Part shown: positions 11,614 through 58,453 of the stretch, in pieces
Position numbering within the stretch: the stretch's first letter is position 1
Layout: the number at the start of each line of letters is the position of its first letter
From: an uncultured Nitrospira sp.
GTDB lineage: Bacteria > Nitrospirota > Nitrospiria > Nitrospirales > Nitrospiraceae
NCBI GenBank assembly: GCA_902500995.1
Contig: CABVSR010000010.1
Span: 1 to 64,000 of the forward strand
Direction: 5' to 3'
Length of the DNA stretch: 64,000 nucleotides
Translations under genes and position numbers: made by a program
Notes under the pieces: generated by a model
What the model was told of the DNA's origin: nothing
What the model saw: the letters and a program-made list of their open reading frames with translations, nothing else
The model's database searches: none

Positions 11614-11639
11614 GGTTTCGGTATCCGTGGGTTGAACGC

Positions 11640-12533: not shown

Positions 12534-12658
12534 AGAGCACCCTCTCTGGTGAAGAGCGGCTGTGAGGACCGGCGCGGGGCCGGTCAGGACGGTGTGCCGC
12601 TCCAGTGGTTCGGTGAAGTCCCGATGCTATCACGACGCGGCATCCGTGCAAGCGGTTG

Positions 12659-12674
12659 CCGGTTTTGAAACCGG
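12659..12674 (-). terminator. short dyad downstream of the nucleotidyltransferase gene
   Basis: CCGGTT-TTGA-AACCGG forms a 6-bp stem 14 bp past the stop codon at 12689. No U-run follows, so termination is inferred from position only. Confidence 0.25.
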
Positions 12675-12688
12675 ATGGCGTTGCCCTG

Positions 12689-22262: not shown

Positions 22263-22263
22263 C

Positions 22264-29184: not shown

Positions 29185-29209
29185 GTCTTTGTCGCGAGGA
29201 GGTGAGGAG

Positions 29210-34082: not shown

Positions 34083-35117
34083 ATGACCCACGACAGAGCC
34101 ACATCGTTCGCGCCAAATAGAGAGATGAACGGCACGGCGCATGCTCACGGCGGCTTGGCGGTCGAGCCCCTCACGCCTGACGGCAGCCTCCCTCTGGTGG
34201 TGTCACCGTCGGAAGTCCGGCCACTGGACGAGTATTTCGACGGCGCCCGCCGAATGGCCGAGACCTTGTTGCCGCTTGCCGGCGGCCTGTTGTTCCGCGG
34301 CTTGCCGATCAGGTCGGCAAGCGACTTCGAATCGTTCATCGGCGCGTTTACCTCGTCCCTGGTCTCATACGAATTCGGTTCCACGCCCCGCTCCCGCGTG
34401 CAGCGCCAGGTCTACACCTCGACGGAATATCCCCCGCACCAGCACATTCCGCTGCACAACGAACAGGCTTACACGAGAGAGTGGCCGATGAAGATCTGGT
34501 TCTATTGCGGGCAGGCCGCGGAGCAGGGCGGCTATACGCCTATCGCGGACAGCCGGGAAGTCTACCGGCGCATCCCGGCTCGCATACGCGAACGCTTCGT
34601 GCAGAAACAGATCATGTACGTCCGCAACTACGGCAACGGCTTGGACGTCCCCTGGCAGAAGGTGTTCAACAGTGACGACCCCGCCGTCGTGGAACGGTAT
34701 TGCCATGACAACGGGATCGACTACGAGTGGAAAGCAGACGGTGAGCTGCGCACCAGGCAAGTCGCCCAGGCCATCGCGGTGCATCCGCGAACCGGCCAGA
34801 CGGTCTGGTTCAATCAGGCCCACCTGTTCCACGTCTCGAATCTCGAAGCGGCGGTGCGGGAAGCGCTCCTGGCAGTCGTGGCCGAGGAAGACCTGCCGCG
34901 CAATGCCTGTTACGGAGACGGGAGCCCGATTGAGTCCGATCTGCTGGACGAGATTCGCGACGTCTATCGAAGCCTCGCGGTGCAGTTCGCGTGGCAACAG
35001 GGAGACGTGATGATGCTCGACAACATGCTGGCCGCCCATGGCCGCACGCCCTTTGCTGGGCGCCGGCAGATTCTCGTCGCCATGGCCGAGCCGCGGGGAG
35101 GGGAGACGCCATGCTGA
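34083..35117 (+). CDS. SyrP-like Fe(II)/2-oxoglutarate dioxygenase (putative aspartyl beta-hydroxylase)
   Basis: This TauD-fold enzyme of 344 aa has iron ligands H125 and E127 (LHNEQAY) and distal H319 (AAHGRTPF), with a presumptive 2-oxoglutarate-binding Arg soon after. The sequence [19 protein letters not shown] and [12 protein letters not shown] resembles SyrP, which hydroxylates carrier-bound aspartate. NRPS4 ends with a homologous domain, and two downstream adenylation domains have Asp codes. Hydroxylation of Asp-PCP to beta-hydroxyaspartate is therefore the favoured role. ATG 34083 follows CCGGAGGTACC. The stop overlaps NRPS2 by 7 bp. Confidence 0.88.
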
Positions 35118-38100
35118 TGCCTTCCGATCAGACGCAGGCTTCGCCCACCGATGTGCTGGGATCGGAACCTGAGCAGTACCAATTTCCGATGAGTTTCGGC
35201 CAACGGCGGCTCTGGTTCCTGTCGCAGTTGGAACCGGAGAGCGCGTCGTACAACACGGCGATTGCCGTCCGGATGAAGGGGCGTCTGAATTCGCGCATCC
35301 TGCTGGACTGTTTCACTCGCATCGTCGAACGGCACGAAATCCTGCGGACGACCTTTGCGACCGACAATGGGGAACCGGTCCAGATCGTCGCGGCCACCGG
35401 CCGGGTCACGTTGGCCACCGGCCGCGTTGAGAACCGCCCCGAGGCCGTGCTGATCGCGGCGCGCGATGAAGCGCAACGGCCATTCGACCTGCACGAGGGA
35501 CCGTTACTCCGGCTGCGGCTGTTCGACATCGCCGCCGACGATCACCTGCTGGTCATCGCGCTGCACCATATCGTCTGTGACGGCTGGTCGGCCCAGATTC
35601 TCGCGCGGGAATTCGCGCGGCTCTATGCGGCAATGACGACGGGTGTCGATGCGGCCTTGCCGGCCCTCCCGATCCACTACGCCGATTATGCGGAATGGCA
35701 ACGGGGGTGGCTGCAAGGGGAGGTGCTAGAAGGGCAGTTGGCCTATTGGAAACGGCAGCTGGCTGGGGAGCTGCCGGTCCTCGAATTGCCGGCCGATCGC
35801 CCGCGCGGAGCGGTGCAAACGTCCTCGGGCAGCCGCTATCTGTTCACGCTGCCGCTGCCTATGGCGGCGCGACTGCGGGACCTCAGCCGCCGCCACAACG
35901 TGACGCTGTTCATGACTCTGCTGGCGGCCTTTCAACTATGGCTGATGCGGTATACGGGCCTTGAAGATATTTGCGTGGGCACGCCGATCGCCTGCCGGAC
36001 CAAACGCGAAACCGAAGACCTGATCGGATTTTTCGCCAACACCCTCGTGCTGCGGACGGATCTTTCACACAATCCCACGTTCCCGCAGTTGCTCGAGCGG
36101 GTCCGGGACGTCGTCATCGGCGGCCAAGCCCATCAGGAATTGCCGTTTGAAGAATTGGTGGATGCCTTGAAACCGGCGCGGGCGCTGAGCCACTCGCCCT
36201 TGTTCCAGGTCATGTTTGCGCTGCAGACGGGGTTGGCGGGCGCCGTCTCGCTGCCGGGATTGCAGGTGGAGATCACGGAAGTCGATGCGGCCGCCGCAAA
36301 ATTCGATCTCTCGTTGGACATGGCCGAAACGGCCGAGGGGTTGGAAGGCGCTTTCGAGTACAACCGCGACCTGTTCGATGAGCAGACCATCGCTCGCATG
36401 GCGAAGCATTTCCATACGTTGCTTGCAGGCATCTGCGATGAGCCGGACCGGCGGTTGAACGAGTTTCCGCTCCTTTCTCTGGATGAGCAGAACCAAGCCC
36501 TGTTGATCGGGCCGAAGGCGTCTACCGGTGACTGGTCGGGATTTTCCGCTGCCTTCGAAGCGCAGGTACGACGCAGCCCCAATGCCGTCGCGGTCGAATG
36601 CGCGGGATCGAGCCAGACCTATGCGGAGCTCAACGCCGAGGGGGCCGGCATCGCGCGGATCGTGGTTGCTGCCGGCGCCAAGCCGGACCAGATCGTCGCG
36701 CTGTTGCTCGATCGCGGGATTGCGCTGCTCACGGCGATGATCGGCGTGATGAAGGCAGGTGCGGCCTACCTTCCGTTGGACCCTGCCCATCCGGCTGGTC
36801 GTTGGCGCGAGATGCTCGAAACGAGCGGCGCGTCGCTGGTCATGACGAACGAGTCCTACCGTCGCTCCCTGTCGGAGGCCTGCCCGGCGGTGGCTTCCGG
36901 CCAGATCATCTTACGTACCATCGATGCGGCCGGCCTCGACGACCAGACGCCTATTCCTTCCCGCAGCACGTCGCCCGATCAGCTGGCCTACGTCATCTAC
37001 ACCTCCGGTTCGACGGGAGTTCCAAAGGGCGCCATGGTGACCCAGCGGGGCTTGATGAATCATCTGTCGAGCAAGCGCGATTCCTTGGGCCTTGGGCCGG
37101 ACGATGTGGTGGCGCAGACGGCCTCCGCCTGTTTCGACATCTCCGTCTGGCAACATCTGGCCGCTCTGCTCTGCGGAGCGCGCACGCTGATCGTCCCCGA
37201 CGACCTCGCCCGCGATCCGTCGCGGCTGTTGGATTGTTTGGATCGGTCGGGAGTGACGGTGGCAGAAACCGTGCCGGTGTTGCTCAAGGGCATGCTGGAA
37301 AGCCGGCAGGCCGCCGCCCTTCGCGCACTGCGCTGGCTCCTGCCCACGGGTGAAGCCTTGCCGCCGCAACTCTGCCGGGAGTGGTTCGAGAAGTATCCGC
37401 ACGTACCGTTGGTCAATGCCTATGGGCCGGCCGAATGTGCCGACGATGTGGCCACCGCGGTCATTGCCTCTCCCCCAGGAGCGGATGAGGTCTGCATGCC
37501 GATCGGGCATCCCATTCAAGACACCCGACTCGTCGTGGTGGATCGTTGGATGACGCCGGTGCCGGGTGGTGTGGCGGGTGAATTGTGTATCGGCGGCGCT
37601 GGTGTGGGGCGGGGCTACGCGCAGGATGCGGGTCGCACCGCGCTGTCGTTTGTGCCGGATCCCTTTGCGTCGGAACCGGGCGCTCGCCTCTACCGCACCG
37701 GCGATCGCGTTCGCCTCCGCCCCGACGGCCATCTCGAGTTCCTCGGGCGGATGGACCATCAAATCAAATTGCGGGGGGTACGGATCGAGCCGGGGGAAAT
37801 CGACGCGCGGTTGCGGGCGTTGCCCGGCATCAGCGATGCGGTCACGGTGCTGCGCGAAGATCGCCCCGGGCAGAAGCGGTTGGTGGCCTATGTGGCGGCG
37901 GCGCCGGGGCCATCGGTTGCCCTGGAGGAATGGCGCAGCCTCCTGCGCCGCACTCTTCCGGACGCGATGATTCCTTCCCAGATTGTGCTCATGGAGGCCT
38001 TGCCGCGCACGGCGAACGGCAAGGTGGATCGAGTCTCGTTGCCGGTCCCGCACAACAGACATTGTGAAGACGACGTGGCTCCGCGTGACGGAGTCGAAAC

Positions 38101-41100
38101 CGCGCTCGCGGGGATCTGGGCTGATGTGCTGCAGCAAACACGGATCGGCGTGCACGACAATTTTTTCGAACTCGGCGGCGATTCCATCGTCAGCCTGCAG
38201 GTGGTGAACCGCGCCAGAGAAGCCGGTTTAGCCCTGACGCCGAGACACATCTTTCAACATCAAACCATTGCGGAACTGGCCGCCGCTTTGGCGGAACCGC
38301 AGGAGGCCAGTTCTCACACGACTGCGATTGATCTTTCTGCGCCGCTTGTCGATGAAGCCTCGTTCGCCATCGCGAAGGCAGCCTGCCCGGACCTTGAAGA
38401 CGTCTATCCTCTGAGCCCGCTGCAGCAGGGTCTACTCTTCCACAGTCTGTATGCGCCGGGCTCCGGCGTCTACATCGAGCAGATGAGCTGGCGTATGCAA
38501 GGGGCGCTGGAGCCGGAGTCGTTCCGAAAGGCCTGGCAAGGGATTGTCGATCGGCAGCCGGTGCTGCGGACGAGATTCCTCTGGCGCGAGGCTGCGGAGC
38601 AGATCCAGATCGTGCTGCCGTCGGCAAGGTTGCCCTGGACGGAACTGGACTGGCGCGACGATCCGGTCGCCGAGCAGGAAGCGCGATTGAGCCGATTGGT
38701 GGAAGAGGATCGGCGTACGGATTTTGATTTCGCACAGCCGCCCCTGATGCGCATCACGGTGATCCGACTTGCGCACAGGACGTATCAAGTCTTGTGGACG
38801 CATCACCATATCCTCATGGATGGCTGGTGTTTGCCGATTCTGTTGCAGGACGTGTTGCGCGCCTCTCACGCGCTCGTCGGGCGAGGCGAGGCTGTGCCGG
38901 CTGAACCGGTCACGCCCTATCGTCACCATATCGCCAAGCTGCTCGCTCAAGATCAGACCGAAGCCGAGCGTTTCTGGCGCCTGTCGTTGAAAGGCATGAC
39001 GCAGCCGACCGTGCTGGGAGAAGACAGTTCTGCGGAGGCTGTCACTCCATCCTCTCACGGCGCCGCTACGCTGACCTTGTCGGCCGACGCGAGCGCCAAG
39101 GTTCTGGCCTTTGCGCAACAACAGCGCGTGACGCTCAATACGGTGGTGCAAGGCGCATGGGCCATCCTGCTGAGCCGCTACAGCCGCGAATCCACTGTGA
39201 TGTTCGGCACGACCGTCTCCGGGCGGTCGTCGGACCTTCCCGGCATCGAGACCATGGTCGGGCTCTTCATCAATACGCTGCCGTTGCGCGTGGCTGTTAC
39301 CCCCGACGCTGTCCTTGTCGAATGGCTGCGAGCGCTGCTGGCGCACAACGGCGAGCTGCGGCAGTTCGAGCAGACCCCGCTCGTGCAGATCCAAGGCTGG
39401 AGCGAGGTGGCCAGGGGACAGCCGCTGTTCGAAAGCCTCGTCGTGTTCGACAACCATCCCCTGGACGAGAGGCTGGAAGGGGAGACCGGCGTCACGGTCG
39501 AACGCGTGACCCTCTCCGGCCAAACCAACTATCCCTTGACCCTGAATGTGCTGCCGGGCAAGGAGCTCACCTGTTCTCTTTGGTATCAGCGCAACCGGTT
39601 CCAGGATGAGCGCGCGCGCCGCATCGTCCGACAACTCGAGACGCTGTTGCTGGCGATGATCCAAGATCCTCATGCGCGGTTGAGTTCGCTCCCCTTGATG
39701 GATGCCGCGGAGCGGGCGCAGGTGGTGGGGGCGTGGAACGAGACGGCCTGCGCCTATCCGGCGGTGTCGGTGCCCGCGCAGATCGCCGCCCAGGCCGCGC
39801 GGACTCCCGAGGCCGTGGCCGTGCGGGCCGGCGAGCAGACGCTGACCTATGCCGCATTGCTCACCCAGGCGCAGCAGCTCGCCGGCGCCCTCCGAGCACG
39901 CGGGATCGGCCCGGAAGCGCTCGTCGCGGTGGCGCTGGAGCGCTCGCTCGACCTGGTCGTGGCGCTGCTCGGGACTTGGTATGCCGGCGCCGCCTTCGTG
40001 CCCCTCGATCCCTCCTATCCCGTCGAGCGCCTGCGCTATATGCTTGACGACAGCCACGCGGCGCTGCTGCTGACCGATGCCGCCCAGGCCACCCGGCTCG
40101 CCCATGGCGGGCCTACGCTCTGCCTCGATCAGGACCGGGCCCAGTGGACCGCCGCGCCGGTGATGCCTCCGCCCGCGTTCGCCGAGGCGCAGCTCGCCTA
40201 TGTGCTCTACACCTCCGGCTCCACCGGCCGGCCGAAGGGCGCCGGCAATACCCATGCGGGCCTGCGCAACCGGCTCCAGTGGATGCAAGAAGCCTATGTG
40301 CTCACCCCCGCCGACCGTGTGTTGCAGAAGACCCCCATCAGCTTCGATGTCTCCGTCTGGGAATTCTTCTGGCCCCTCCTCGCCGGCGCCGAACTGGTCA
40401 TGGCCGAGCCGGGCGCCCATAAAGATCCCGCCCGCTTGCTCGACCACATCGACCAATACGGCATTACCACTCTGCATTTTGTGCCGCCCTTGCTGCAGGC
40501 CTTCGTCGATCACCCCGGCGTCGCACGCGGGCGGAGCCTGCGGCAGATCCTCTGTAGCGGCGAAGCCCTCCCGGCCACCTTGCCCCCGCGCGTGCAACAG
40601 CACTGGCCACACGTGACCCTGCATAATCTCTATGGGCCCACCGAAGCGGCCATCGATGTCACGGCCTGGACCTGTCCGACGCCCCCGCCTCCGACGGTCC
40701 CGATCGGGCGGCCCATTGCCAATCTCCAGTGTTACATTCTCGACCCGCAAGGCGAGCCCGTGCCGATCGGCGTGCCGGGGGAATGTTATCTCGGCGGCAT
40801 CGGGGTCGGGCGGGGCTACCATCGGCGGCCGGAGCTGACCGCCGAGCGGTTCGTGCCCGATCCCTTCAGTGCGCAGCCCGGCCAGCGGCTCTATCGCACA
40901 GGGGATCTCGTGCGTTTCCGGCCCGACGGGGCCATCGACTATCTGGGCCGGTTGGATCAGCAGGTGAAGATTCGCGGCGTGCGCATCGAATTGGGGGAAG
41001 TCGAAGCCGCGCTCCGGCAGCAGCCGGGCATTCGCGAGGCGGTGGTCGTCGCCCGGCGGGACGGCCAAGCCGGAGCCCGGCTCATCGCCTATGTGACAAC

Positions 41101-41617
41101 CGACCCGGATCGCCCGTGGGAGACCGCGGCGCTCAAGTCGGCGCTCGCGCGCACGCTGCCGGAGTATCTGGTGCCCGCGATCATCATCCCGCTGGCGCAG
41201 TTGCCGCTCAGCCCGAACGGGAAGGTGGATCGCAAAGCCTTGCCGGCCCCGGAGTGGGACACACAACGCACGCAGGCCTACGAGGCGCCCGCGACCGAGA
41301 CCGAGGAGCAGCTCGCCGCCATCTGGGCCCAGGTGCTCGGCCTCCCCCAGGTCGGCCGCCACGACAACTTCTTCGAGCTCGGCGGGGATTCGATCACGAG
41401 TCTCCAAGTCTTGGCCAAGGCCCATCGCGAGGGCATTACGCTGACCCCCAAACAACTCTTCGAGCAGCCGACCATCGCCTTGGCGGCATCGGTCGCGGTG
41501 ATGGGGAGCATCGAGGCGATACCGCCGGCCGCCCATGAACAGGATTCCGGGCGGATCGTGGACGTGGACCTGAGCGATGAGGAGATGGAGAACCTCTTGA
41601 AGGAGCTTGAAGCGTAA
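35111..41617 (+). CDS. NRPS2: C-A(Dab)-PCP-C-A(Ser)-PCP
   Basis: This is a two-module synthetase of 2,168 aa. Module 1: C (HHIVCDG 152-158), A with pocket from Asp676 (FDISVW) reading D-I-W-E-L-T-A-D-D, a Dab-type code, and PCP Ser1025. Module 2: C (HHxxxDG at 1232-1238), A whose pocket ([29 protein letters not shown]) reads D-V-W-H-L-S-L-I-D, the classic serine code, and PCP Ser2094. The protein ends in a short acidic helix ([16 protein letters not shown]) like a communication-mediating donor. ATG 35111 has GGGGAGGGGAG upstream. The second A-PCP is encoded by a segment apparently identical to one in NRPS3. There is no epimerase or release domain. Confidence 0.95.
39696..41394 (+). repeat. 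1,699-bp direct repeat, copy 1 (Ser A-PCP cassette in NRPS2)
   Basis: From TGATGGATGCC in the C-A linker to CGAT just after the PCP serine codon, the sequence matches positions 46223-47921. I saw no mismatch in the text compared, and all overlapping reading frames on both strands translate identically. Flanks diverge at once on both sides. The offset between copies is 6,527 bp throughout, so there are no net indels. Confidence 0.9.
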
Positions 41618-44600
41618 TGCAGGCAATCACCAAACCAGAGATGGCTCAACGTATGACCGGTGGCGGGCTCACGAATATCGAAGCCGTCTATCCGCTTTCT
41701 CCCATGCAGGAGGGCATGCTGTTTCATACGCTGATGAATGCCGGTACCGGCATCTATTTGATGCAGAACCGGTACTGTGTGGAAGGGGACTTGGATCAGG
41801 CGGTATTCCGCCAAGCCTGGCAACAGGTCATCGCGCGCCACTCGATCCTGCGCACGTCTTTTGTCTGGAAAAGTCAGAAGCGTCCGTTGCAAGCCGTCCA
41901 TAAGAAATTCGAGGTGCCGCTGGACCTGCTGGACTGGCGAGACAAGGATCGTGCTACGCAGGCGGCCGATGTAGACGCGCTCTTGCAGCAGGAACTTGCC
42001 CAGGGATTTGACTTCGCGACGGCGCCGCTGATGCGCCTGCGATTAATCCGTCTCACCGACCGCACCTATCAGTTCGTACACAGCTTCCACCATATCCTGC
42101 TCGACGAATGGTGCATCTCGCCGCTCTTGATGGATTTCCTGGCTCACTATGAAGCGTGCGCCCAGGGTCTGGTGTGCCAGGCGGAAAAGCCGCGGCCCTA
42201 TCGCGATTACATCGCCTGGCTGCGACAACGCGACCTGAAGGCGGCCGAACGGTTTTGGCGCGAGTACCTTCAGGGATTTTCGACACCCACTCCGCTGGCC
42301 TACGACCGGCCGCCCGAAGGCTTGGCCGACCAGAACGACGACGCGGCGGACCATTGCGTCCACCTGAGTGCCGATCTCACGGCCCGGCTCACGGCGCTGG
42401 CCCAACAACATCGCGTGACGCCGAATACATTCGTGCAGGGCGCCTGGGCTCTGCTCCTCGCGCAGTACAGCGGTGAGCAGGACGTGCTGTTTGGTGTGAC
42501 GGTGGCAGGCCGCCCGACGCAGCTGGTCGGCGTTGAATCGGTGCTGGGCCTTTTCATCAATACACTGCCGTTGCGCGTGACCGTCTCGCCGAATCGTCCG
42601 GTCCTGGCCTGGCTGAAGGAACTATTCGCGGAAAACATCAGACTGCGGGAATACGAATACACGCCTCTCATTCAGATCCAGCGCGCCAGCGAGATCCCGC
42701 GCGGAGAAGCGCTGTTCCATAGCCTGTTCGTCTTCGAAAACGCGCCGGTTGATCCAGCGCTCTGCGAGGGGCGGATCATGTTCCGCGCGGAAGAAGAACA
42801 GTATCGGGTCCACACGAACTATCCCATGACCGTGATGGGTTGGCCCGGCAAGGAATTGGGGCTCAAGCTGTCCTACGACCGCCGACTCTTCGATGCGGAC
42901 ACCGTCCTCAAAATGATCGGTCACCTCAAAGCGCTGCTGGAAGGTCTGATCGCCAGGCCGGATGCCCGCATCGGCGAGTTGCCTATGCTGGAGCGGGAGG
43001 AACGTGCGCGATTGTTGTCCTATGGAATCGGGGAGAGCGATCAACCAACGGACGAGCGGAGTTTCGCCCTGCGATTCGAAGCGCAGGTGCGGCGATCACC
43101 GCAGGCCATCGCGGTCCGCTGCGGCGATCAGTCCCTGACCTACGAGGCATTGAATCGCCGGGCCAGTCGGCTGGTCCATCGGCTGAGAGCGGAAGGAGTC
43201 GGTCACGACTCGGTGGTCGCCCTGCTGGATGAGCGCGGGACAGACCTCCTCACGATGATCGTTGGATGTTTCAAAGTCGGAGGCGCCTATATGCCCCTCG
43301 ATCCGCACCATCCCGTCGCTCGCCTGTCCAGACTGCTGGAATTGAGCCGGGTTTCTGCCGTCGTCACCTCGCGGCGTGTGAAGTCCTACCTCGATCAGGT
43401 GCTGTCGGCCATGCCGCAAGAGGCGCGACCGGTGGTCGTGGTGCTGGATGAACTGCAAGCAGAGCCGGGATCGGAGGAGGATCGTGCGGTGCCTTCGCGC
43501 AGAGATCAGTTGGCCTACGTGATTTATACGAGCGGCTCGACCGGGGTGCCGAAGGGCGCCATGGTCACGATGGGCGGCATGCTCAACAATCTTGACAGCA
43601 AGCTGCGCTCCCTGTCGCTCGGCTCACAGGATGTCATCGCGCAGACCGCCTCTCAATGTTTCGATATCTCGGTGTGGCAATTCCTGACCGCGCTGCTGTG
43701 CGGCGCCACCACCCATATCTTGCCCGATGAGGTGGTGCGGGAGCCCTCGCGGCTGCTGGCAGAGCTCGGGACGACGGGCATCACCATTTACGAAGCCGTG
43801 CCCGCTGTCTTGCAGGCATTGTTGGATACGGCCGAGGGATCGGGCGAGCGATCGGAAGCGGCACCGGCTCTTGCCGGATTGCGCTGGGTCTTGCCGACCG
43901 GAGAAGCGCTGCCGCCGGCCCTCTGCCGACGCTGGTTCGAGCGGTACCCCAGCATTCCGTTGATGAATGCCTATGGTCCGGCCGAATGCGCCGACGATGT
44001 CGCGATCCATCCGATACATGAGTCGCCGGCCGAGCATCTCGCCCGGATGCCGATCGGACGGCCCATTCAACAGGTGCGCCTCTATATCCTCAACCGGTGG
44101 TTGGAGCCGGTCCCCGCCGGCGTCTCCGGCGAACTCTGCATCGGTGGGGTGGGAGTCGGTCGGGGATACTTGCAGGATCCTCAACGCACCGCGCAGGCAT
44201 TCCTGCCTGATCCCTTTGCGAGCGAGCGGGGAGCGAGACTCTATCGCACGGGCGACCTGGCCCGCTTCAGACCCGATGGCACGATCGAGTACGTGGGGCG
44301 CGTCGATCACCAGGTCAAGATTCGCGGCTTCCGCATCGAGTTGGGTGAAATCGAATCCTGCCTCACCGATCAAGACGAGATCCGAGAAGCGGCCGTCATC
44401 GTTCGAGAAGACCGGCCCGGAGACAAACGATTGGTCGCCTACGTCGTGCCGCAGGAGGGCCGTTCCGTTGACCACGATCGATTGCGGGCGGCGCTTCAGG
44501 AACAGCTCCCTGAATACATGGTTCCCGCGATCGTACTGCCGCTCGATGCCTTGCCGCGCACGCCGAACGGCAAGGTGGACCGGCGAGCCTTGCCCGCTCC

Positions 44601-47600
44601 TGATTGTGAGGATCTCGACCGAGCGTCCTACCTCGCGCCCCGTACCGTCACGGAGGAACTCCTGGCGTGCATCTGGGCGGATATCCTCGGGCTCGAACGG
44701 GTCGGGGTGCGGGACCATTTCTTTGAGTTGGGAGGCCATTCGCTCCTAGCTACCCAGGTCGTGTCCCGCATCCGGAACGCCTTTCACATCGAGCTGCCGT
44801 TACGGGCTGCCTTTGAGTGCCCCACCATCGCCGATCTGGCGGCCACAGTGGATCGGGTTCGTGCCGAAGGCAACGGCCGCCAAATTCCCCCATTGACGGC
44901 CTCGCGCCGGGAGGGGCCGGCTCCCTTGTCCTTTGCGCAACAGCGGCTTTGGTTCCTGGCGCAACTCGAACCGGAGAGTTGGCTGTACAACCTATCTTTC
45001 GGCATGCGGCTCCGGGGTCCGCTCGACGCCGGCGCCCTGTGCAGAAGCTTCGACGCCGTCGCGTTGAAGCATGATCAGTTGCGCACGCAATTTCTCCTCG
45101 TCGAAGGCCGGCCCGCCCAGGAAATCGTCGGTTGTTCCGCCGTGCCGTTTGAGCAACAGGAGGCGCACCTCAGGCCGGACGAGACCTCGGACGACTATGT
45201 TGCGCGCGCGGCGGCAGCGGAAGCCCAACGGCCCTTTATGCTGGAAGGCCATCTGCTCTGGCGCGTGAAGCTCGTGCGCCTGGGGGAGCAGGATCATCTG
45301 CTGCTCGTGACCTTGCACCATACGATCGCGGACGGCTGGTCGTTGAATCTGCTGCTGGCCGACATGGTCGACACCTACTGCGCCTTGCGCGGCGGCAAGC
45401 CAGTGCCCTTGCCGAGTCCAACGGTGCGGTACGCCGACTATGCACAATGGCAGCGCGAATGGATGACGGGAGAAGTCCTCGACCGCGAGCTGGACTATTG
45501 GAAGCGGACGCTCGGCGGCGCTCCCTCGATGTTGAGCCTGCAGACGGACCATGCCCGCCCCACCGTACAAACGTTCCGCGGCGCGCGGCACGATTTCACC
45601 GTCCCCTCGAATCTGCTCACGGCATTACAGGCGCTCAGCCGCCGGCAGGGCGCCACACTCTTCATGACCGTTCTCGCAGGCTTTCAGGTCCTGCTGCATC
45701 GCTACGGCGGTGATATGGATCTGTCGATCGGCACCCCGATCGCCAACCGCACCAGCCTGGAAACGGAAGACCTGATCGGTTTCTTCGTCAATACGCTGGT
45801 GCTGAGAACCGACCTGAGCGGCAATCCGCGGTTCATCGATCTCCTCGATCGGGTGCGGGACGTGGTGGTGGGTGCGCAGAGTCACCAAGATGTGCCCTTC
45901 GAGCAGGTGGTCGATGCGCTCAAACCGGAACGGGACCTGAGCCATGCGCCGCTTTTCCAGGTGATGTTCGCGCTCCAGACTCTCGGACGGCAGGCGATGG
46001 AGATTCCGGACCTCTCGATCGAGCCGGTGGAGGTCGATCCCGGGAGCGCGAAGTTCGATCTCTCGCTGGAAATGACCCTGGCACCGGAAGGTCTCACCGG
46101 GTTTTTCGAGTTCAATCTGGATCTCTTCGAGCCGTCCACGATCGCGCGCATGGCCGGGCATTTCCTTACCCTGCTCGAGAAGATTGTCGCGGAGCCGCAA
46201 CGCAAGCTCACGGCGTTTCCGATGATGGATGCCGCGGAGCGGGCGCAGGTGGTGGGGGCGTGGAACGAGACGGCCTGCGCCTATCCGGCGGTGTCGGTGC
46301 CCGCGCAGATCGCCGCCCAGGCCGCGCGGACTCCCGAGGCCGTGGCCGTGCGGGCCGGCGAGCAGACGCTGACCTATGCCGCATTGCTCACCCAGGCGCA
46401 GCAGCTCGCCGGCGCCCTCCGAGCACGCGGGATCGGCCCGGAAGCGCTCGTCGCGGTGGCGCTGGAGCGCTCGCTCGACCTGGTCGTGGCGCTGCTCGGG
46501 ACTTGGTATGCCGGCGCCGCCTTCGTGCCCCTCGATCCCTCCTATCCCGTCGAGCGCCTGCGCTATATGCTTGACGACAGCCACGCGGCGCTGCTGCTGA
46601 CCGATGCCGCCCAGGCCACCCGGCTCGCCCATGGCGGGCCTACGCTCTGCCTCGATCAGGACCGGGCCCAGTGGACCGCCGCGCCGGTGATGCCTCCGCC
46701 CGCGTTCGCCGAGGCGCAGCTCGCCTATGTGCTCTACACCTCCGGCTCCACCGGCCGGCCGAAGGGCGCCGGCAATACCCATGCGGGCCTGCGCAACCGG
46801 CTCCAGTGGATGCAAGAAGCCTATGTGCTCACCCCCGCCGACCGTGTGTTGCAGAAGACCCCCATCAGCTTCGATGTCTCCGTCTGGGAATTCTTCTGGC
46901 CCCTCCTCGCCGGCGCCGAACTGGTCATGGCCGAGCCGGGCGCCCATAAAGATCCCGCCCGCTTGCTCGACCACATCGACCAATACGGCATTACCACTCT
47001 GCATTTTGTGCCGCCCTTGCTGCAGGCCTTCGTCGATCACCCCGGCGTCGCACGCGGGCGGAGCCTGCGGCAGATCCTCTGTAGCGGCGAAGCCCTCCCG
47101 GCCACCTTGCCCCCGCGCGTGCAACAGCACTGGCCACACGTGACCCTGCATAATCTCTATGGGCCCACCGAAGCGGCCATCGATGTCACGGCCTGGACCT
47201 GTCCGACGCCCCCGCCTCCGACGGTCCCGATCGGGCGGCCCATTGCCAATCTCCAGTGTTACATTCTCGACCCGCAAGGCGAGCCCGTGCCGATCGGCGT
47301 GCCGGGGGAATGTTATCTCGGCGGCATCGGGGTCGGGCGGGGCTACCATCGGCGGCCGGAGCTGACCGCCGAGCGGTTCGTGCCCGATCCCTTCAGTGCG
47401 CAGCCCGGCCAGCGGCTCTATCGCACAGGGGATCTCGTGCGTTTCCGGCCCGACGGGGCCATCGACTATCTGGGCCGGTTGGATCAGCAGGTGAAGATTC
47501 GCGGCGTGCGCATCGAATTGGGGGAAGTCGAAGCCGCGCTCCGGCAGCAGCCGGGCATTCGCGAGGCGGTGGTCGTCGCCCGGCGGGACGGCCAAGCCGG

Positions 47601-49491
47601 AGCCCGGCTCATCGCCTATGTGACAACCGACCCGGATCGCCCGTGGGAGACCGCGGCGCTCAAGTCGGCGCTCGCGCGCACGCTGCCGGAGTATCTGGTG
47701 CCCGCGATCATCATCCCGCTGGCGCAGTTGCCGCTCAGCCCGAACGGGAAGGTGGATCGCAAAGCCTTGCCGGCCCCGGAGTGGGACACACAACGCACGC
47801 AGGCCTACGAGGCGCCCGCGACCGAGACCGAGGAGCAGCTCGCCGCCATCTGGGCCCAGGTGCTCGGCCTCCCCCAGGTCGGCCGCCACGACAACTTCTT
47901 CGAGCTCGGCGGGGATTCGATTCTTGCGCTGCAAGTCATTGCACAGGCCAAACAGATCGGTCTCTCGCTGACGCCCCGGCAGCTGTTTCAACAGCAAACG
48001 ATCCACGCGCTCGCGGTGGCCGCCCATCTGGAGGCGGACCGGTCGCCGGCCATTCAGGCTGATCAAGGGACGGTATCGGGATCATTCCCCATGACGCCGG
48101 CCCAACGCTGGTGGTTCGAGCAACGATTGTCCGAGCCCCATCACTGGAACCAATCGCTGATGGTCACGCTGTCCGAGCCGCCCGATCGCGCCAGGCTGGC
48201 CCGCGCCATCCGGTGGCTGCTGGATCAGCATGACGGTTTGCGCAGCCGCTTTGAGCGCACGAATGCCACCACCGCAAGAATCGAAGCGGCCGTCTCTCTG
48301 GACGAGGCGCTGGTGGTGATCGAACTTCACCAACAGGCCGACAGTGAAATATCGACCGCAATCGCGCGCGAGGCGGAGCGGTATCAGCAGAGCCTGGATG
48401 TGGAACGGGGGCCGCTGTTCCGCGCCGTCCTGTTTGATCCGGGTCCACAGCGTCCTGCGACGCTCCTGTTCATCGCGCACCATCTGGTCGTGGATGGCGT
48501 GTCGTGGCGCATCCTTTTGGAGGACCTCCAGCGGGTCTATCGCGATGAGGCAGGTGTCGCGCCGGCCGCCTGGCCTAAAACCACATCGATCAAACAATGG
48601 ACGGAAGCAGCGCAGCAGGCTGCTCAGTCCGAGACGGTCCTGAATGAACTGCCTTTCTGGGAGAAACAGGTTTCATCGGAAGTCTCCGGCCTCCCACTTG
48701 ACCATCCGGCGGCTGATGGGACGGAAGCTTCGACGGAAACCTGCCCGGTGACATTCACCAGAGCAGAAACCGAAGCGCTGTTGCGGGAAGCTCCCGCGGC
48801 CTACCGGACGCAGGTGAACGACCTTCTGCTGGCGGCCTTGGCACAGACGTTTCAGCGCTGGACCGGGCAGGGTCATCTGCTGGTGGACCTGGAAGGCCAT
48901 GGCCGCGAGCCCTTCGTGCCGGGAACGGATCTCGCTCGGACGGTCGGATGGTTCACGAGTATCTATCCGATTCTTCTGCGATTGCCGGAGGGTTCGAACG
49001 GCGACATCGTGAAGGGCATCAAGGAACAACTGCGGGCGGTCCCCTCCGGTGGAGTCGGGTACGGCCTGCTGCGGTATCTATCGCAACATCCCGGCGCCGT
49101 CCGGCTTCAGCAACCATCCTCTCCCCAGGTCTGCTTCAACTATCTGGGGCAGCTGGATCGGGGGACAGCCGGACAGAGCCTGTTTGAGCTGGCCGCCGGG
49201 CCGACGGGCAGGGAGCATGGACCATCCAATGTCATGCGGTACGAGTTCAACATCAACGCGGACATCACCGATGGCTGCCTCACCGTCAACTGGACCTACA
49301 GCCGCGCCAGAATCGATCGATCGACGATGGACAGGCTGGCGGCCTCATATCGCCGGCACCTGTGCGACCTGATCGCCCATTGCTGTTCGCCGGAGGCGGG
49401 CGGGTACACCCCGTCCGATTTCCCGGACGTCGACCTCGACCAGGATGCCCTCGACACCATTCTTCAGTCTATGGAGAGCCATGCACGATAA
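41617..49491 (+). CDS. NRPS3: C-A(Dab)-PCP-C-A(Ser)-PCP-E
   Basis: This is a 2,624-aa two-module synthetase ending in an epimerisation domain. Module 1: C with H158-H159 and the variant HHILLDEW (Glu replaces the Gly of HHxxxDG), A from Asp683 with code D-I-W-E-L-T-A-D-D (Dab-type), PCP Ser1042 (GGHSL). Module 2: C (HHTIADG from 1234), A from Asp1753 with serine code D-V-W-H-L-S-L-I-D, PCP Ser2101 (GGDSI), then E (about 2150-2600; HHLVVDG at 2288, [20 protein letters not shown]). D-Ser is predicted at this position. The C-terminus carries another short donor-like helix ([15 protein letters not shown]). ATG 41617 shares one base with the NRPS2 stop. Confidence 0.95.
46223..47921 (+). repeat. 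1,699-bp direct repeat, copy 2 (Ser A-PCP cassette in NRPS3)
   Basis: This is the second copy of the segment at 39696-41394. The downstream divergence begins 2 bp after the PCP serine codon, so the repeat covers the entire A domain and the first half of the PCP but neither C domain. Confidence 0.9.
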
Positions 49492-52400
49492 ATCGCACAT
49501 CGAAGCCATGTATTACTTGTCCCCGCTGCAGCAGGGGCTGCTCTTTCATCGCCTCGCCGACGCCGCGGCCGATCCCTACTTCTACCAGTATGCCTATCGC
49601 TTGCGTGGCGACCTGCGACCGGACGCCTTCGAGCAAGCCTGGCAAGCGGCGGTGGACCGCCATGCCGTGCTGCGGACGGCCTTCATCTGGGAAGGGGTGG
49701 AGAAACCGCTGCAAGTCGTCCGCCGGCAGGTGCGGCTCCCGATCGAGCGCCATGATTGGCGAGGCGTGCCGGCGAGCGAGCAAGGCGCGCGCTTTCAGTT
49801 CTTGCTCGAACGCGATCGCGCTGCTGGAGTAGATCTGCTTCAGCCGCCCCTGATGCGGCTCCATCTGATCCGGAAGGAGGAGCGCGAGTGGCTGTTGATC
49901 AACAGCCACCACCACATCCTGTTGGATGGATGGAGCATGGCCATCCTGTTGCGCGACGTGCTCACGGCCTATGAAACGCTCGTGACGGGGAAGGCTCCGG
50001 CATTGGCGACCACCAGGCCCTATCGCGACTACATCTCGTGGGTCAATCGCCGGGACATGCAGCAGGCAGAAACCTATTGGCGCGGGATCTTAGCGGGATT
50101 CGCGCGGCCGACCACCATACCGATCGAGGCTCCGTCTGAACAGATGAGCGCCGACTCATGGCCGTTCGCCGAGCAGTGCTGGCAATGGTCAACGGATAAG
50201 ACCGATGCGCTGCAAGCGTTCGCCAAACGGTGTAGGGTCACCGTCAATACGGTATTGCAAGGAGCCTGGGCCTTGCTGCTGCATCGCTATAGCGGAGAGC
50301 AGGACCTCTTGTTCGGCGCGACCGTCTCCGGGCGCACGCCCGAGCTGGCCGGCGTGGAGGACATGGTCGGTCTCTTCATCAACAGTTTGCCGATTCGTAT
50401 CTTCGTTCGACCGGAGCAGAAGTTGGCCGACTGGCTGCGGGCTGTGCAGGAGCAGAATGCGACGTTGCGGCAATATGAATGGACTCCCCTCAGCGACATC
50501 CAACGTTGGAGCGACGTACCCAACGGGACGGCTTTGTTCGAGAGCCTCATGGTGTTTGAAAGTTACCCGGAGGCCGAGGACGACCAAACGCCGTCGCTCA
50601 TCATTGAGCCGCTGGCTGCTGCACGAAGCGGCGCCTATACGATGACGCAGGGGCGCAACAACTATCCGCTTTCGTTGATGGTCGAACCGGGCCGGGACCT
50701 GCGTGTCATCGTCTGTTACGCCCACCGTCGGTTCGCGCATGCGGCGATCACCAGGATGATCGGACATCTGGAGGCGCTACTGACCGCGATGGTCAAGACC
50801 GAGGATGCCGCGATCGGGACGCTGCCCATCACCACGGAAGGCGAGGCACGTCAACTCGCGGCGTGGAACGGCTCGTTCTCAAGCGGCGAGCCAGAGGAGA
50901 CCTGCATCCATGACGCAATCGCCGCCCAGGTGCAAGCACAGCCCGAGGCGGTAGCGGTCGTCACCAAACAGGAGCGGGTGACCTATGGTGAGCTGGACCG
51001 TCGGGCGAATCGGCTGGCCAGGTATCTGCGGGCGCAAGGAATGAAGTTAGAGGACCGGGTCTGCCTCTGTCTGGACCGGTCGCTGGATCTGGTCGTCGGG
51101 ATCCTCGCCGTGCTTAAAGCCGGCGGAGCCTATGTGCCGCTGGATGCGACCTATCCCCGTGAACGGCTCGCCGCGATGGTGGCCGACAGCGAGTCCCGCT
51201 TCATCATCAGCCGAAGCGAGCAAGCCAAAGGCCTCGAACAGGGTCTCGCGCATGTGATTCTGCTGGACCGCCAAGCCGGGGTCATCGAGGATTACGATGA
51301 CACGCCGCTCGCGACATCAGTGTCGCCCCGCAACCTTGCCTATGTGATCTACACCTCAGGCTCCACCGGCCGCCCCAAGGGAGTGGCGGTGGAACATCGC
51401 CAGGTGACGGCCTATGTGAACGCCGTCCTACAGCTTGAACCAGTCGCGGCCGGACGAAGCATGGCGGCCGTCTCGACCGTGGCGGCTGATCTCGGCAATA
51501 CGGCACTGTTCGGCGCGCTCTGTTCCGGCCGTACGCTGCACCTGCTTCCGACCGAAGACAGTTTCGACCCCGATGCGATGGCCGCAGCCATGCATGATCG
51601 ACAGGTCGAGGTGCTCAAGATCGTGCCGAGCCATCTGAAAGGGCTTCTCCACGCCGCCCATGCCGAACGGGTGTTGCCCACTCGCTGCCTGATGCTCGGG
51701 GGGGAATCGCTCCGTGGCGATCTCATCCAGCAGATCCGCCGATTGGCCCCGGCCTGCGCCATCGTCAACCACTATGGGCCGACCGAAACGACGGTCGGCT
51801 GCTTGGCCCATGTGATCGAGGCATCAGCCGACGGGATCGCAGCCGACGCGCCGATCGGCCGGCCCTTCTCGTCTGTACAAGCCCACGTCCTCGACCGTGA
51901 TGGCCGGCAGACCCCGGTCGGCCTGCCAGGGGAACTCTACATCGGTGGACTGCAAGTCACGCGCGGCTATCTCAACCGGCCGGAGGCCACGGCGGAACGG
52001 TTCGTGCCGGACCCGTTCAGTCGCAGGCTCGGAACGAGGCTCTATCAAACAGGCGACCGGGCGAAACGCAGGGCCGACGGCACCATCGAATTCCTCGGGC
52101 GGGTGGATCATCAAGTGAAGATTCGCGGGTTCCGCATCGAGCTGGGCGAGATCGAGACGCAATTGCGGAGCGACCCGGAAGTCTCCGATGCGGTCGCTGT
52201 CGTGCGCGAACAAGCAGACGGCACGCAACAGCTCGCAGCCTATCTCACCGGTCTTTCTACGCTGGATACGGAAGCCGTTCGAACCAGGCTCCTCTCCCGT
52301 CTGCCCGAGTACATGGTGCCGAACACCTTTGTGATATTGGATGCCTTTCCCCTGACCGCCAACGGCAAGCTCGACCGGGCGGCTCTGCCTGATCCCGGCC

Positions 52401-55400
52401 TGCAGACCCTTGCGGCCCAGTCACCCTACGTCGCGCCACGGAACAGGGCCGAGGAGATTCTGACGGGAATCTGGCAAACCGTGTTGCAGCTCGATCGGGT
52501 CGGCGTCCATGACAATTTCTTCGCGTTGGGCGGCGACTCGATCCGCACGCTGCAAGTCATTGCGCGCGCCAACCGAGAAGGCGTGAAACTCACGCCCAAA
52601 CAACTCTTTGAACATCAGACCATCGCTGCCGCCGCGGCGGTCGCGCAGGTGAAGGATGGGCGGGAGCAGGGCGATCTGCCCAAGGCCGCCGTCACTCAGA
52701 AGCCGGTTACACCGACCACCTCAAGCCTTCCGGACTTTCCGCTCACGGGCCTCGCTCCGGAGGGCCTGGCGGCGCGCCGTGACGATTGGGCAGCCATCGA
52801 GGATTGTTATCCCTTGTCGCCCATGCAGGAAGGCATGCTGTTTCACAGTCTGATGAATCCCGGCTCCGGCATCTATCTCATGCAGCAGTTTTACGCCTGG
52901 GAGGGGAGGCTGGATCGTGAGGTCTTCGGTCAGGCCTGGCAATCGGTCATCGACCGGCATCCGATGCTCCGCACCTCGTTCATGTGGAAGGACCTGGCGG
53001 CGCCGCTCCAAGTCGTCCACCGGCAGGTCCAGGCGGAGAACGTGATCCAAGACCTGGATTGGACCGAGCTTAGCGACGATCAGCAGCAGACCCGCATGGG
53101 GGAGTTACTGGAGCAAGAGCTGAAAGACGGCTTGGATTTCGAGCGGGTTCCGCTGATGCGGATCCGTCTGGTCCGGCGCGGTCCAGACCGGTATGCGATC
53201 GTGCGGAGCTTTCACCACATCCTGACCGACGATTGGTGTTTTTCCCTGCTGATGATGGATTTTCTAACCCACTATGATGCTCGCCTGCAGGGCCGGTTGG
53301 CCGATCTTCCGAAGCCGGCGCCCTATCGCGACTACATCGCCTGGTTGCAACGGCAGGATCAGTCGGCGGCGGAACAGTTCTGGAAAAAAGAGCTGGCTGG
53401 ATTTGCGACTGCCACCCCATTAGGCATCGAACGGTTGGACCCCGACGCCTCGGCCGGCGGGTCGGCCGTGAGCGATGAGTTCATGGAATTGTCGCCGGCC
53501 GTTTCCGAACGTCTGCGGACCTTGGCGCAGCAGCACTATGTGACCCCGAACACGTTCCTGCAAGGGGCATGGGCCATTCTGCTGTCGCGGTACAGCGGAG
53601 AACGAGACCTGTTGTTCGGCGTCACCGTTGCAGGAAGACCGACCGACTTGCCGGGCGTCGAGGACATCGTGGGCCTCTTCATCAATACGCTGCCGCTTCG
53701 CGTGACCGTCAGGCCGGATGTGCCGGTGATGATCTGGCTCCGTCATCTCTTGGCGGAGAACTATCGCATCCGCCAGTACGAATACGCGCCGCTGGTGCGC
53801 ATCCAACAATGGAGCGAGGTGCCGGTGGGACAGGCGCTTTTCCGCAGCCTGCTGGTTTTCGAAAATGCGCCGAAGGATGCGCAGCTTGGAGAAGAACGGG
53901 CGGACCGGTCGCTCTCCTATGATCAGGATCGCGTGCACACGAACTATCCCATGACCGTCGTCGGGTATCCCGGCGAGTCGATGGGCGTGCGCCTCTCGTA
54001 CGATCGGCGGCTCTTTCAATCTGCCGACGTGGCGCGGATGCTCGCGCATCTCAGGCGACTGCTCGAATCGATGGCGACGTCGCCTGAAGCGGCAATCCGT
54101 GATTTGCCCATGTTGGATGACGGTGAACGGGAGCGTCTGCTGACCCTATGGAGTGGGAGCGACCGCGATGAAGCGACGGCGGCTGATTTCCCCACGCTCT
54201 TCGAAGCCCAAGTTAAACGCATGCCGTTCGCAACGGCGGTGGAATGCGGCGATGCCGGCATGACCTACGATGAACTCAACCGTGCCGCCGACACTGTCGC
54301 TCGGGGGTTGCGCGAACGGGGAGTCGGGACCGATGACATTATCGCGTTGCTGGATGATCGCAGCCCGGCGCTCTTGTCGATGATCGTCGGCGTGCTCAAG
54401 GCCCGGGGCGCCTATCTGCCCTTGGATCCACACCATCCGGCTGAACGACTGGCTCAGATCGTCTCTTCCGCCCGGGCAAACATCATCCTGGCGGGAGCCG
54501 ACCATCTTTCCTTGGCGTCCGCCGTGGCAGGCCTGGTTGCGGAAGGTGTGAGGCCGCTGGTTCTGTCTATGGAAGACGTGAGCAAAGCCGGGGAGAGGGG
54601 AATCACGCAGTCAAGCGCCGCGGCATCCGGCGGTACCGCTTGCAACCGCCTTGCCTATGTCATTTTCACCTCCGGTTCCACCGGCAAGCCCAAGGGCGCG
54701 ATGGTGGAATCACGGGGCATGATGAATCACCTGACCAGCAAAATCCCGACGCTGGGGCTGACGCCGGCGGATGCCGTGGCGCAGACCGCCTCACAATGTT
54801 TCGACATCTCGGTGTGGCAATTATTGACACCGCTGCTCTGCGGCGCGCGGGTGTGCATCATTCCCGATGAGATCGTCCGCGACCCGCAGCGTCTGTTGAA
54901 CGAAGTGGCGGCGCGCCGCCTGTCGGTGCTGGAGCTGGTGCCGTCCTTGTTGGGTGGTCTGCTGGATGGGCCGCCCTTGCCGCTCCCACATCTGCGCTGG
55001 TTGTTGCCCACGGGCGAAGCCTTGTCGCCGGCGTTGTCTCGCCGCTGGTTTGCTCGGTATCCGGCGGTGCCGCTGCTGAACGCGTACGGCCCGGCCGAGT
55101 GTTCGGACGATGTGGCCGTGGCCTGTATCCGCCACGCGCCGGCCGAAGACGAAACCAGCATGCCGATCGGCCGGCCGATCACCGGCGTGCGGTTGTATGT
55201 GCTCGATCGCCATCTGGATCTGATGCCGCCCGGCGTGGCCGGAGAGCTCTGCGTCGGCGGTGTGGCGGTGGGGAGAGGGTACCTGCATGATCCGGCGCGA
55301 ACCGCCGAGGTCTTCGTGCCGGACCCCTTTGGCTCCGAGCCCGGGAGCCGGCTGTACCGGACCGGTGACCTGGTGCGCTACAGGCCTGACGGCTTGTTGG

Positions 55401-58400
55401 AGTTCGTGGGACGACGCGATCATCAGGTCAAGCTGCGCGGATTCCGTATCGAACTGGGCGAGATCGAGGCGCGGCTGGCGCAACATCCAGATGTGGACCG
55501 CTGTGTGGTCGTCGTGGCGGAGCCGCAGCCTGGACATCAGCAATTGGTGGCCTACGTCGCCACGGCGGTCACGTTGCACACCGATGGGTTGCGGGTCTTT
55601 TTGCGCCGTACCTTGCCTGACTATATGGTGCCGGCCCTGTTCGTCCTGCTGCCTGCCTTGCCGCTGACGCCGAACGGCAAGATCGATCGAAAAGCCTTGC
55701 CCGTGCCGGATGCGGATCGCGCGGCCGACGATTTCGAACCGGCGGCCACACCTACGCAGGACCTCATCGGGGGAATCTGGTCCGACATCCTCGGTCTGGA
55801 TCGCATCGGCAGGCGGGATCACTTTTTCGAACTCGGGGGCCATTCGCTTCTGGCCACTCAAGTCATGTCCCGCGTGCGTGCCGCGTTCCAGGTCGAACTG
55901 CCGTTACGGACCCTGTTCGATCATCCCACGGTGGAAGCCTTTGCCGCGGCCATCGATCAAGCGGTGACACAAGGCGACAAGACTCAGGTTCCTCCGCTCG
56001 TGCCGATGCCGAAGACCGATGCGATGCCGCTCTCCTTCGCGCAGCAGCGCCTCTGGTTCCTGACGCAAATCGACCCGGACAGCGGCGCCTACAACTTGCC
56101 GTTCGCCCTGCGCCTCGGCGGCAGGTTGAACCATCACCTGCTCGAGCGCAGTTTTCTCGCACTAATTCGGCGGCATGAAACCTTGCGCACGACCTTTCCC
56201 GCAGTGGACGGGGAACCGCGGCAGGTGATCGTCGAGGCAGATCACTTCTCGATCCCCGTCGAGGACCTGGCAACGTTGTCCGAGTCCGAGCGGACGGCGG
56301 CCATCGGCCGGTCTGTGGAATCAGCGGCGCATCAGCCGTTTCACCTCGACCGCGACCTGCCGATTCGTGCGCGCCTCCTCAGGATCAGCGGCGATGCTCA
56401 CATCCTGCTGGTGACGATCCATCATATCGCCGCCGACGCCTGGTCCCTGGCGGTCGTGACCCATGAAATCGCCGCCGTCTACAATACCTTGGCCAATCAG
56501 CCAGAGGTCTCCGCCGGGCAGCAAGAGGGCGACCCGTCAACGTTCCTCCCGCCGCTGCCCGTTCAATATCGCGACTTCGCCTTCTGGCAGCGGCAGTGGC
56601 TCCAAGGAGCTGTCCTGGAACGCGAGCTCGGCTATTGGAAGCAGCGGCTTGGTGCCGCGCCTCCACAACTGACGCTGCACACGGACCATCCCCGGCCCGA
56701 GCAGCAAAGTTATCGCGGCGGGGGGATCACGTTCCACATACCGGCAGAGGTGCTCGACCCTCTGCGGCGATTGAGCCGGCGGCAGGGCGTAACCCTGTTC
56801 ATGACGTTGCTCGCCGCGTTCAAGGTGCTGTTGTCCCGGTTGGCCAGGCAGACCGACATCCTGGTCGGCACGGATGTCGCCAACCGCAACCGCGCCGAAA
56901 CCGAGCAGCTGGTGGGATTTTTCGTGAATCTGCTCCCGTTGCGTACGGACCTCAGCGGGAACCCTTCGTTCCTGCAGCTCCTGGGCCGCGTGCGGGACAC
57001 GGCCTTGGGCGCCTATGCCCATCAGGATGTGCCCTTCGAAAAAATCGTGGAGTCGCTCAGGTTGCCGCGCAATCTCGGTAGAAATCCTCTGGTGCAAGTC
57101 CTGTTCGTCCTGCAAAACGTGCCGCCCCCTTCGTTGGAACTATCGGGAGTGAATGTCGAGTCGCTGGAGTTCGAGCATGAGGTCTCGCGGTTCGATGTCG
57201 GGCTCTTCATGGAAGAAACCGAAGATGGGTGTGCCGGTCTGTGGAAATTCAGCCGCGACCTGTTCGAATTCGAGACGATCGCGGGCTGGACGCAGCAATT
57301 CCTGCGGTTGTTGCGCCACATCGGTCAGACACCCGAGCGGGGGATCGAGACGCTGGAGATCGGCGAGACGGAGACACAGGAGACGCAGACCATGGATCAG
57401 CAGCAACGGAACGATCAGCGGCTTCAGCGATTCAAGGCGATCAAACCCAAACCCATCGCGCTGGCGCAACGAACGCTAGTGACCGGCCGGCCCCTCGTGG
57501 AAGGCCAAGCGATGCCGTGGGTGTATACGCCGGCGGTGGACGATGTGGATCTCGCCGGATGGGTGAAGGACCAGCGGAGCCGATTGCAGCGCGAATTGTT
57601 CCAGGCCGGGGCCCTGTTGTTTCGAGGGTTTCCGCTCAAGACCGTGCAAGACTTCGAGTCGGTTGCGCAGGCCTTCTGCACCGACCTGTTCGGCGAATAC
57701 GGCGATCTGCCCCGGGAGAAGAGCGGCCGCCATGTCTACGGCTCGACCCCGTACCCGCCGGACAAGCCCATTCTGTTTCACAACGAAAGCTCGCACATGC
57801 ACCGCTGGCCGCAGAAACAGTTTTTCTTCTGCCTGCAGGCGGCACGGGAAGGCGGGCAGACGCCGATCGTCGACGGCCGGCTGATGCTCAAGGGCCTCCG
57901 GCCGGAGTTGCGCGAGCGGCTGCAGAGCAAACAGCTGATGTACGTCCGGAACTTTCACCCGAGCGTGGATGTCAGCTGGCAAGACTTCTTCCGCACGACC
58001 GACAAGGCTGCGGTCGAAGCCATGTGTGCTCAGAACGGTTTGGAATGGCAGTGGCTGGACAAGGAAGGGTTGCGCACTAAACAGCTCTGCCCCGCGATCA
58101 TCGAGCATCCGGACACGGGTGACGCCGTCTTCTTCAATCAGATCCAGCTCCATCACGTGTCCTGTTTGGAGCCGGCGGTGCGTGAGTCCCTGATCTCGAT
58201 GCTCGGTGTCGATTCTGTGCCGCGAAACGTCTACTACGGTGACGGCACACCGATCGAAGATGAGGTGGTCGATGAGATCGGGGCCTTGTATGAACGCACT
58301 GCCGTGCGGTTTCCCTGGCAGCAGGGCGATCTGATCATGTTGGACAACATGCTCGTGGCCCATGCCCGCGATCCCTTTGTCGGACCGCGCAAGATCGTGG

Positions 58401-58453
58401 TCGCCATGGGTGAGATGATCGCCCAATCCGCCGTGCAGTCCATGACATCGTAG
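49481..58453 (+). CDS. NRPS4: C-A(Asp)-PCP-C-A(Dab)-PCP-C-dioxygenase
   Basis: At 2,990 aa this is the largest complete gene. Module 1: C (HHILLDG, H144/H145), A from Asp670 (ADLGNT) reading D-L-T-K-M-G-H-V-G, an aspartate-type code, PCP Ser1020. Module 2: C with HHILTDDW (Asp replaces Gly, H1245/H1246), A from Asp1775 with Dab-type code D-I-W-E-L-T-A-D-D, PCP Ser2122. A third C domain (HHIAADAW, H2314/H2315) is followed not by A-PCP but by a linker and a SyrP-like Fe(II)/2-oxoglutarate dioxygenase (about 2645-2980) with ligands H2767, E2769 and H2961. This fused domain is a candidate aspartyl beta-hydroxylase acting on Asp-PCP in NRPS4 or NRPS5. ATG 49481 has GGAGAG upstream and overlaps NRPS3 by 11 bp. 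Confidence 0.95.

Follow-up and report, generated by a model that had tools for sequence, protein, structure and literature searches.

Two serine-type A-T units, which lie in adjacent nonribosomal peptide synthetase (NRPS) genes of a Nitrospira genome, are identical over 1,699 bp and share their borders with the corresponding units of related species. As judged from the pattern of identity within and between genomes, the two units are very probably paralogs whose identity is maintained by recurrent gene conversion (non-crossover homologous recombination). The stretch analysed, referred to here as the window, comprises positions 1-64000 (64,000 nucleotides) of contig C10 from a 3.97-Mb genome (G000).

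An identical unit in two adjacent NRPS genes

The modules of the cluster were numbered m1-m9, and the identical copies are those of m3 and m5. The features of this region are listed below with the evidence for each; a slash marks the position of a border.

34991-41617, + strand: gene NRPS2, C-A(Dab-type code)-T-C-A(Ser)-T (ORF, Pfam, motifs, codes)
38446-39675, + strand: C domain of m3, grouping by module position and not by genome (flank tree)
39676-39695, + strand: left border in m3 at the beginning of the C-A linker (ARLSSLP/LM), at the same codon within a few residues in all compared genomes (border alignment)
39696-41394, + strand: upstream copy (m3, NRPS2) with C-A linker, complete Ser A domain and T domain to the Ser codon (exact identity with 46223-47921; Ser code DVWHLSLIDK; borders)
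41378-41395, + strand: right border in m3, motif LGGDS-I, Ser codon 41390-41392, first differing base 41395 (identity and border alignment)
41617-49491, + strand: gene NRPS3, C-A(Dab-type code)-T-C-A(Ser)-T plus a last condensation-family domain (ORF; Pfam, three condensation-family domains; motifs; codes)
44973-46202, + strand: C domain of m5, grouping by module position and not by genome (flank tree)
46223-47921, + strand: downstream copy (m5, NRPS3), identical to the m3 copy (identity, Ser code, borders)
47905-47922, + strand: right border in m5, LGGDS-I, first differing base 47922 (identity and border alignment)

An earlier note, made from the sequence by eye, had described the two stretches as identical with abruptly differing flanks and with borders in the C-A linker and just past the T-domain serine codon. 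Computed pairwise identity bears this out: 39696-41394 and 46223-47921 agree over 1,699 bp at an offset of 6,527 with 0 mismatches and no indel, though assembler smoothing in this 56-contig assembly could conceal a few SNPs. Beyond either end there are 0 further matching bases, and the exact match cannot be extended by 1 base on either side. Among other A domains of this cluster with a common substrate, base identity is 55-61%, so the identity of the two units is far beyond chance. By codon alignment, both copies start at codon position 2, and each contains most of the C-A linker, the whole A domain, and the T domain to 2 bases past the Ser codon. The right end in m3 and m5 alike falls at FFELGGDS/I, 2 bases beyond the phosphopantetheine serine codon, where the Ile codon reads ATC in one copy and ATT in the other and differs in its third base. 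The two units are about 4.8 kb apart in direct orientation. The earlier note had called the event intragenic, which does not hold; since the copies sit in two adjacent genes (34991-41617 and 41617-49491), it took place between genes of one cluster and not within a gene.

Sources outside the cluster were also considered. No inverted repeats were detected in the window scan at the settings used, and no recognisable non-NRPS reading frame lies inside the unit that would indicate a mobile element. A recent plasmid source was rejected, as the matches in the plasmid collection were NRPS sequences of only about 65-68% identity over most of the unit.

Specificity codes and remaining parts of the cluster

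The nine variable specificity positions were read from an alignment of all A domains of the cluster. Those of m3 and m5 are DVWHLSLID; with Lys517 assumed, the Stachelhaus code becomes DVWHLSLIDK, which we take to be the textbook serine code, and which the A domains of m3 and m5 match. Modules m2, m4, and m7 carry DIWELTADD, presumably the 2,4-diaminobutyrate (Dab) code, and a predicted diaminobutyrate transaminase within the cluster (29033-30616) agrees with this reading. In the same alignment, m6 and m8 carry the aspartate-type code DLTKxGHVG and m9 carries DVEGIGAVT. The last condensation-family domain of NRPS3 is probably an epimerase.

From 16320 to 64000 and on, the line includes an acyl-AMP-ligase-like start, a PKS module, the diaminobutyrate transaminase, Asp-type A domains, a penicillin-acylase-family protein (a weak PvdQ match), and TauD enzymes, one of which is fused to the end of the gene at 49445-58453. 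The cluster is predicted from its gene content to be a lipopeptide line, perhaps for an amphiphilic siderophore. Among the papers searched, none dealt with this Nitrospira cluster or with its product. In the m1 A domain (21219-22911), a guanidinoacetate N-methyltransferase-like domain (phmmer E 3.5e-28 to 3orh) is inserted behind motif A8. The m1 gene stops right after this domain, and the C-terminal part of the A domain and the T domain are found on the next ORF; the junction TGACATG (stop, one base, ATG) is kept in 7/7 genomes.

The m3/m5 pair in related Nitrospira

A search for relatives covered 41 genomes and then the genus Nitrospira, with one genome per species compared. The relatives carrying the cluster are Nitrospira, including Candidatus Nitrospira defluvii FP929003.1 (G024), and the m3+m5 pair or its assembly remnant is present in 7 other genomes of the genus. 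The m3-m5 spacing is 6,521-6,527 bp in all two-copy genomes. Within genomes, the two copies differ at 0/1699 positions in G000, 0/1708 in G004 (single contig), 0/1706 in G006, 1/1708 in G024 (single contig), and 4-5/1706 in G011. Paralog identity within a genome is therefore 99.8-100%, and identity between genomes is mostly 78-89%; the exceptions at about 94% are G016 m5 against G000, an import discussed below, and the sister pair G019-G024. Between species, cassette dS ranges from 0.20 to 0.73 with a median of 0.64. Between m3 and m5 of G000, 0 differences are found over 447 synonymous sites, giving a dS below 0.007, about 1% of the between-species value.

The breakpoints are likewise common to the species: across all genomes with the pair, the left borders lie no more than a few residues from one shared codon, and the right borders are all found at one and the same T motif. 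The gene conversion of an A-T unit proposed in the earlier note is thus upheld, and the single recent event it envisaged is not, since five genomes carry species-specific identical or nearly identical pairs. These data support homogenisation as a recurrent, genus-wide process rather than one event. Since both copies are overwritten together, comparison with relatives does not distinguish which is ancestral.

An imported segment in G016

One relative contains two long-diverged Ser cassettes, the kind of case that the earlier note had named as contradicting it. In G016, identity between the m3 and m5 units now stands at 80%, with no homogenisation since the import described here. Across the cluster, G016 is about 91% identical to G006, except in the window-equivalent region of about 45.99-55.76 kb. 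Over most of that region, its identity is 86-100% to G000 and 66-86% to G006.

45990-55760, + strand: window-equivalent of the G016 import from a G000-like species, covering the m5 cassette (L037-L039; edges to about +/-50 bp; identity comparison)

The segment is about 9.8 kb long and its start lies about 230 bp ahead of the m5 unit, and a cassette-sized horizontal transfer as the source of the 94% cassette was rejected on these grounds. A second small mosaic patch lies near 56.6-57.0 kb. By its identity profile, the segment is an interspecies import from a G000-like Nitrospira, with an assembly chimera retaining some probability in this metagenome-assembled genome. Since one of the two G016 copies sits inside imported DNA, the divergence to 80% is explained by the import rather than refuting conversion.

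Replacement of A domains in other modules

The terminal module m9 carries the code DVEGIGAVT or DVEGIGAIT in 6/8 genomes. In G004, m9 holds a Ser unit instead, with a core of about 1.5 kb that is nearly without difference from m3 of the same genome. Its left border is the same as in m3 and m5, and its right border lies about 37 bp before LGG. The C domain and T-TE part of this module are 64-81% identical to their orthologs, and the A domain only 48-67%. On these identities, G004 m9 is a natural A-domain replacement, which should change the last residue of the predicted product to serine. In G020 (L053, L052), m5 is of the Dab type and not Ser, m7 is Gly and not Dab, and m9 is a divergent Ser domain (about 71%); by their predicted specificities, these are several natural A replacements in one cluster. 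As a separate observation, an in-frame TAA interrupts the conserved SPLQxGLLFHS motif in the C3 domain of G004 NRPS2 (L046-L048) and divides the gene into two ORFs. This may reflect a pseudogene, a split gene, or a consensus error, and the NRPS2 copy may be non-functional.

Assembly of the repeat and separate copying

The repeat is an assembly hazard, as the earlier note had anticipated, and three relatives are broken at it. The G019 contig runs from the m3 left flank through one cassette into the m5 right flank, and m4 is found on a separate contig of 5,066 bp, which carries cassette ends. Since the missing m4 is present on contig C2, a true deletion in this genome was rejected. In G009 (CP092081), N-runs lie inside the cassette; the 138-bp tails are identical and the heads differ at 2 of about 161 bases. 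In G006, the contig breaks inside the first copy. Such cases make it conceivable that, also where a pair is seen, the assembly merged two diverged cassettes or used a single consensus twice. However, the same layout occurs in two single-contig genomes (0 differences in G004 and 1 in FP929003) and, with few differences, in G011. The spacing is conserved, and artefacts in five independent assemblies would not yield shared borders or the third copy of G004. For the phenomenon as a whole, an assembly artefact is largely refuted and has very little probability left.

It is about equally improbable that the Ser unit was copied recently and separately into a previously different module of each lineage, in place of ongoing conversion of an old pair. 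Replacement of A domains does occur in these clusters, as m9 of G004 and m5, m7, and m9 of G020 demonstrate. However, the pair or its remnant is present in seven further Nitrospira, so that an origin before the species split is the simplest reading; to assume five independent but identical replacements, all with the same borders, is less parsimonious.

Trees and same-substrate controls

In a tree of 16 cassettes, m3 joins m5 of the same genome in 5/5 cases, and an m3 clade is rejected (AU p 0.00016). The C3 and C5 domains, which lie directly upstream of the units, split cleanly by module position with support of 100/100. The m3 and m5 cassettes of one genome are more alike than orthologs of different genomes, with G016 as the explained exception. 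Other same-substrate domains serve as controls. Within a genome, the Dab paralogs of three modules, which have the same code, are 57-62% identical and the Asp paralogs 55-57%, and their orthologs between genomes are mostly 70-93%; the Ser pair shows the reverse pattern. Strong selection on DNA or protein without recombination, which would draw on the need of both copies for the same substrate and code, has next to no probability, given these Dab values and a cassette that varies freely at synonymous sites between species and is invariant within genomes. The Dab and Asp controls and the dS contrast together indicate that the identity neither requires selection for the same residue nor would follow from it, and that recombination is the explanation.

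A possible course of homogenisation

Under recurrent gene conversion, an old copying event would have placed one Ser unit in both m3 and m5 before the species split. Later conversion tracts would have run within the identical stretch and stopped where the flanks grow dissimilar. Near-identity would itself sustain conversion; sequence divergence of 20% would block recombination, and an import lowering identity to 80%, as in G016, would stop the process. Crossover products, with an in-frame loss of about 6.5 kb including m4, may be selected against, which would preserve the two copies. With borders at the C-A linker and FFxxGGxS, a swap should spare the contacts with the upstream C domain and with the downstream partner of the T domain. 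The shared borders may also be mere edges of the original duplication, without selection on the interfaces.

These loci offer a natural experiment on where NRPSs can be cut and rejoined, with several species, shared borders, and a homogenised pair. It includes a built-in control in the non-homogenised same-substrate domains, one natural swap (G004), and one escape by import (G016). The NRPS loci of Nitrospira are also places where draft assemblies lose modules.

Comparison with known systems

The concerted evolution of NRPS domains is already known; the clean unit and its borders are new. Medema et al. 2014 (PMC4256081) found NRPS and PKS domains to be closer to others of their own cluster than to their orthologs, and described branching patterns for domains such as A and C of daptomycin, A54145, and CDA. 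The pair in Nitrospira, together with the import in G016, agrees closely with the within-cluster likeness reported there and with the trap of internal recombination proposed there. In their model, domains trapped in concerted evolution escape via import or divergence, and the G016 import would fit such an escape. In Nitrospira, by contrast, one substrate class (Ser) is homogenised, the borders are exact to the base, and the flanking C domains are untouched.

Baunach et al. 2021 (PMC8097286; microcystin McyB/McyC) describe natural A-domain recombination in which, as in Nitrospira, modules belonging to a single cluster exchange A-domain sequence. In their findings, natural exchanges mostly involve Acore and leave the C-A linker, Asub, and the A-T interface native, whereas the Nitrospira unit moves the linker, Acore, Asub, and the first part of T together. 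Both the C-A linker and the Asub-T interface, which stay native under an Acore-only rule, lie in the identical stretch.

The natural joints are close to the best-working engineered ones and differ from the Acore-only rule of natural-exchange surveys. In the linker+A substitution of Calcott et al. 2020 (PMC7486941), the permissive left border is the very end of the C domain, and the left border in Nitrospira is nearby, towards the C terminus of C and the start of the linker. XUT-III/IV fusion sites lie in FFxxGGxS (PMC12668312), and the right borders of m3 and m5, at FFELGGDS/I, agree with the XUT-IV type of joint, placed within this motif or at the N-terminus of T helix 2. The engineered joints were designed, whereas those of Nitrospira are natural, recurrent, and close in position.

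Repeats with this pair of borders are not widespread. Among the 71 NRPS loci surveyed, the repeats of Bacillus, Brevibacillus, Paenibacillus, and Crocosphaera end elsewhere; outside Nitrospira, both borders were found only in Pseudoalteromonas L122, and the right one alone in Nitrosovibrio L076, in a 668-bp identical repeat. The Pseudoalteromonas aurantia locus L122 has copies at 11279-13056 and 18980-20757 (1,778 bp, 98.1%) with C-A linker and GGDSI borders. Its borders are at the same two places, but it belongs to another phylum, involves another A domain, and its copies are not identical. A different NRPS line in G007 (single contig; L054, L131) has four Dab units of 96.6-99.7% identity over about 1.66-1.71 kb, several of which start just before TWNxTGAAYPAE in the linker and stop near LGG[HD]S. 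These G007 loci also contain repeats of 3.1 kb (97.9%) and 2.3 kb (97.4%). Tentatively, and with the odds somewhat against it, the unit from linker to FFxxGGxS could be a natural, repeatedly used NRPS exchange unit across phyla, kept interchangeable within a genome by conversion and hence ready for copying into other modules to change the product, as in the terminal module of G004.
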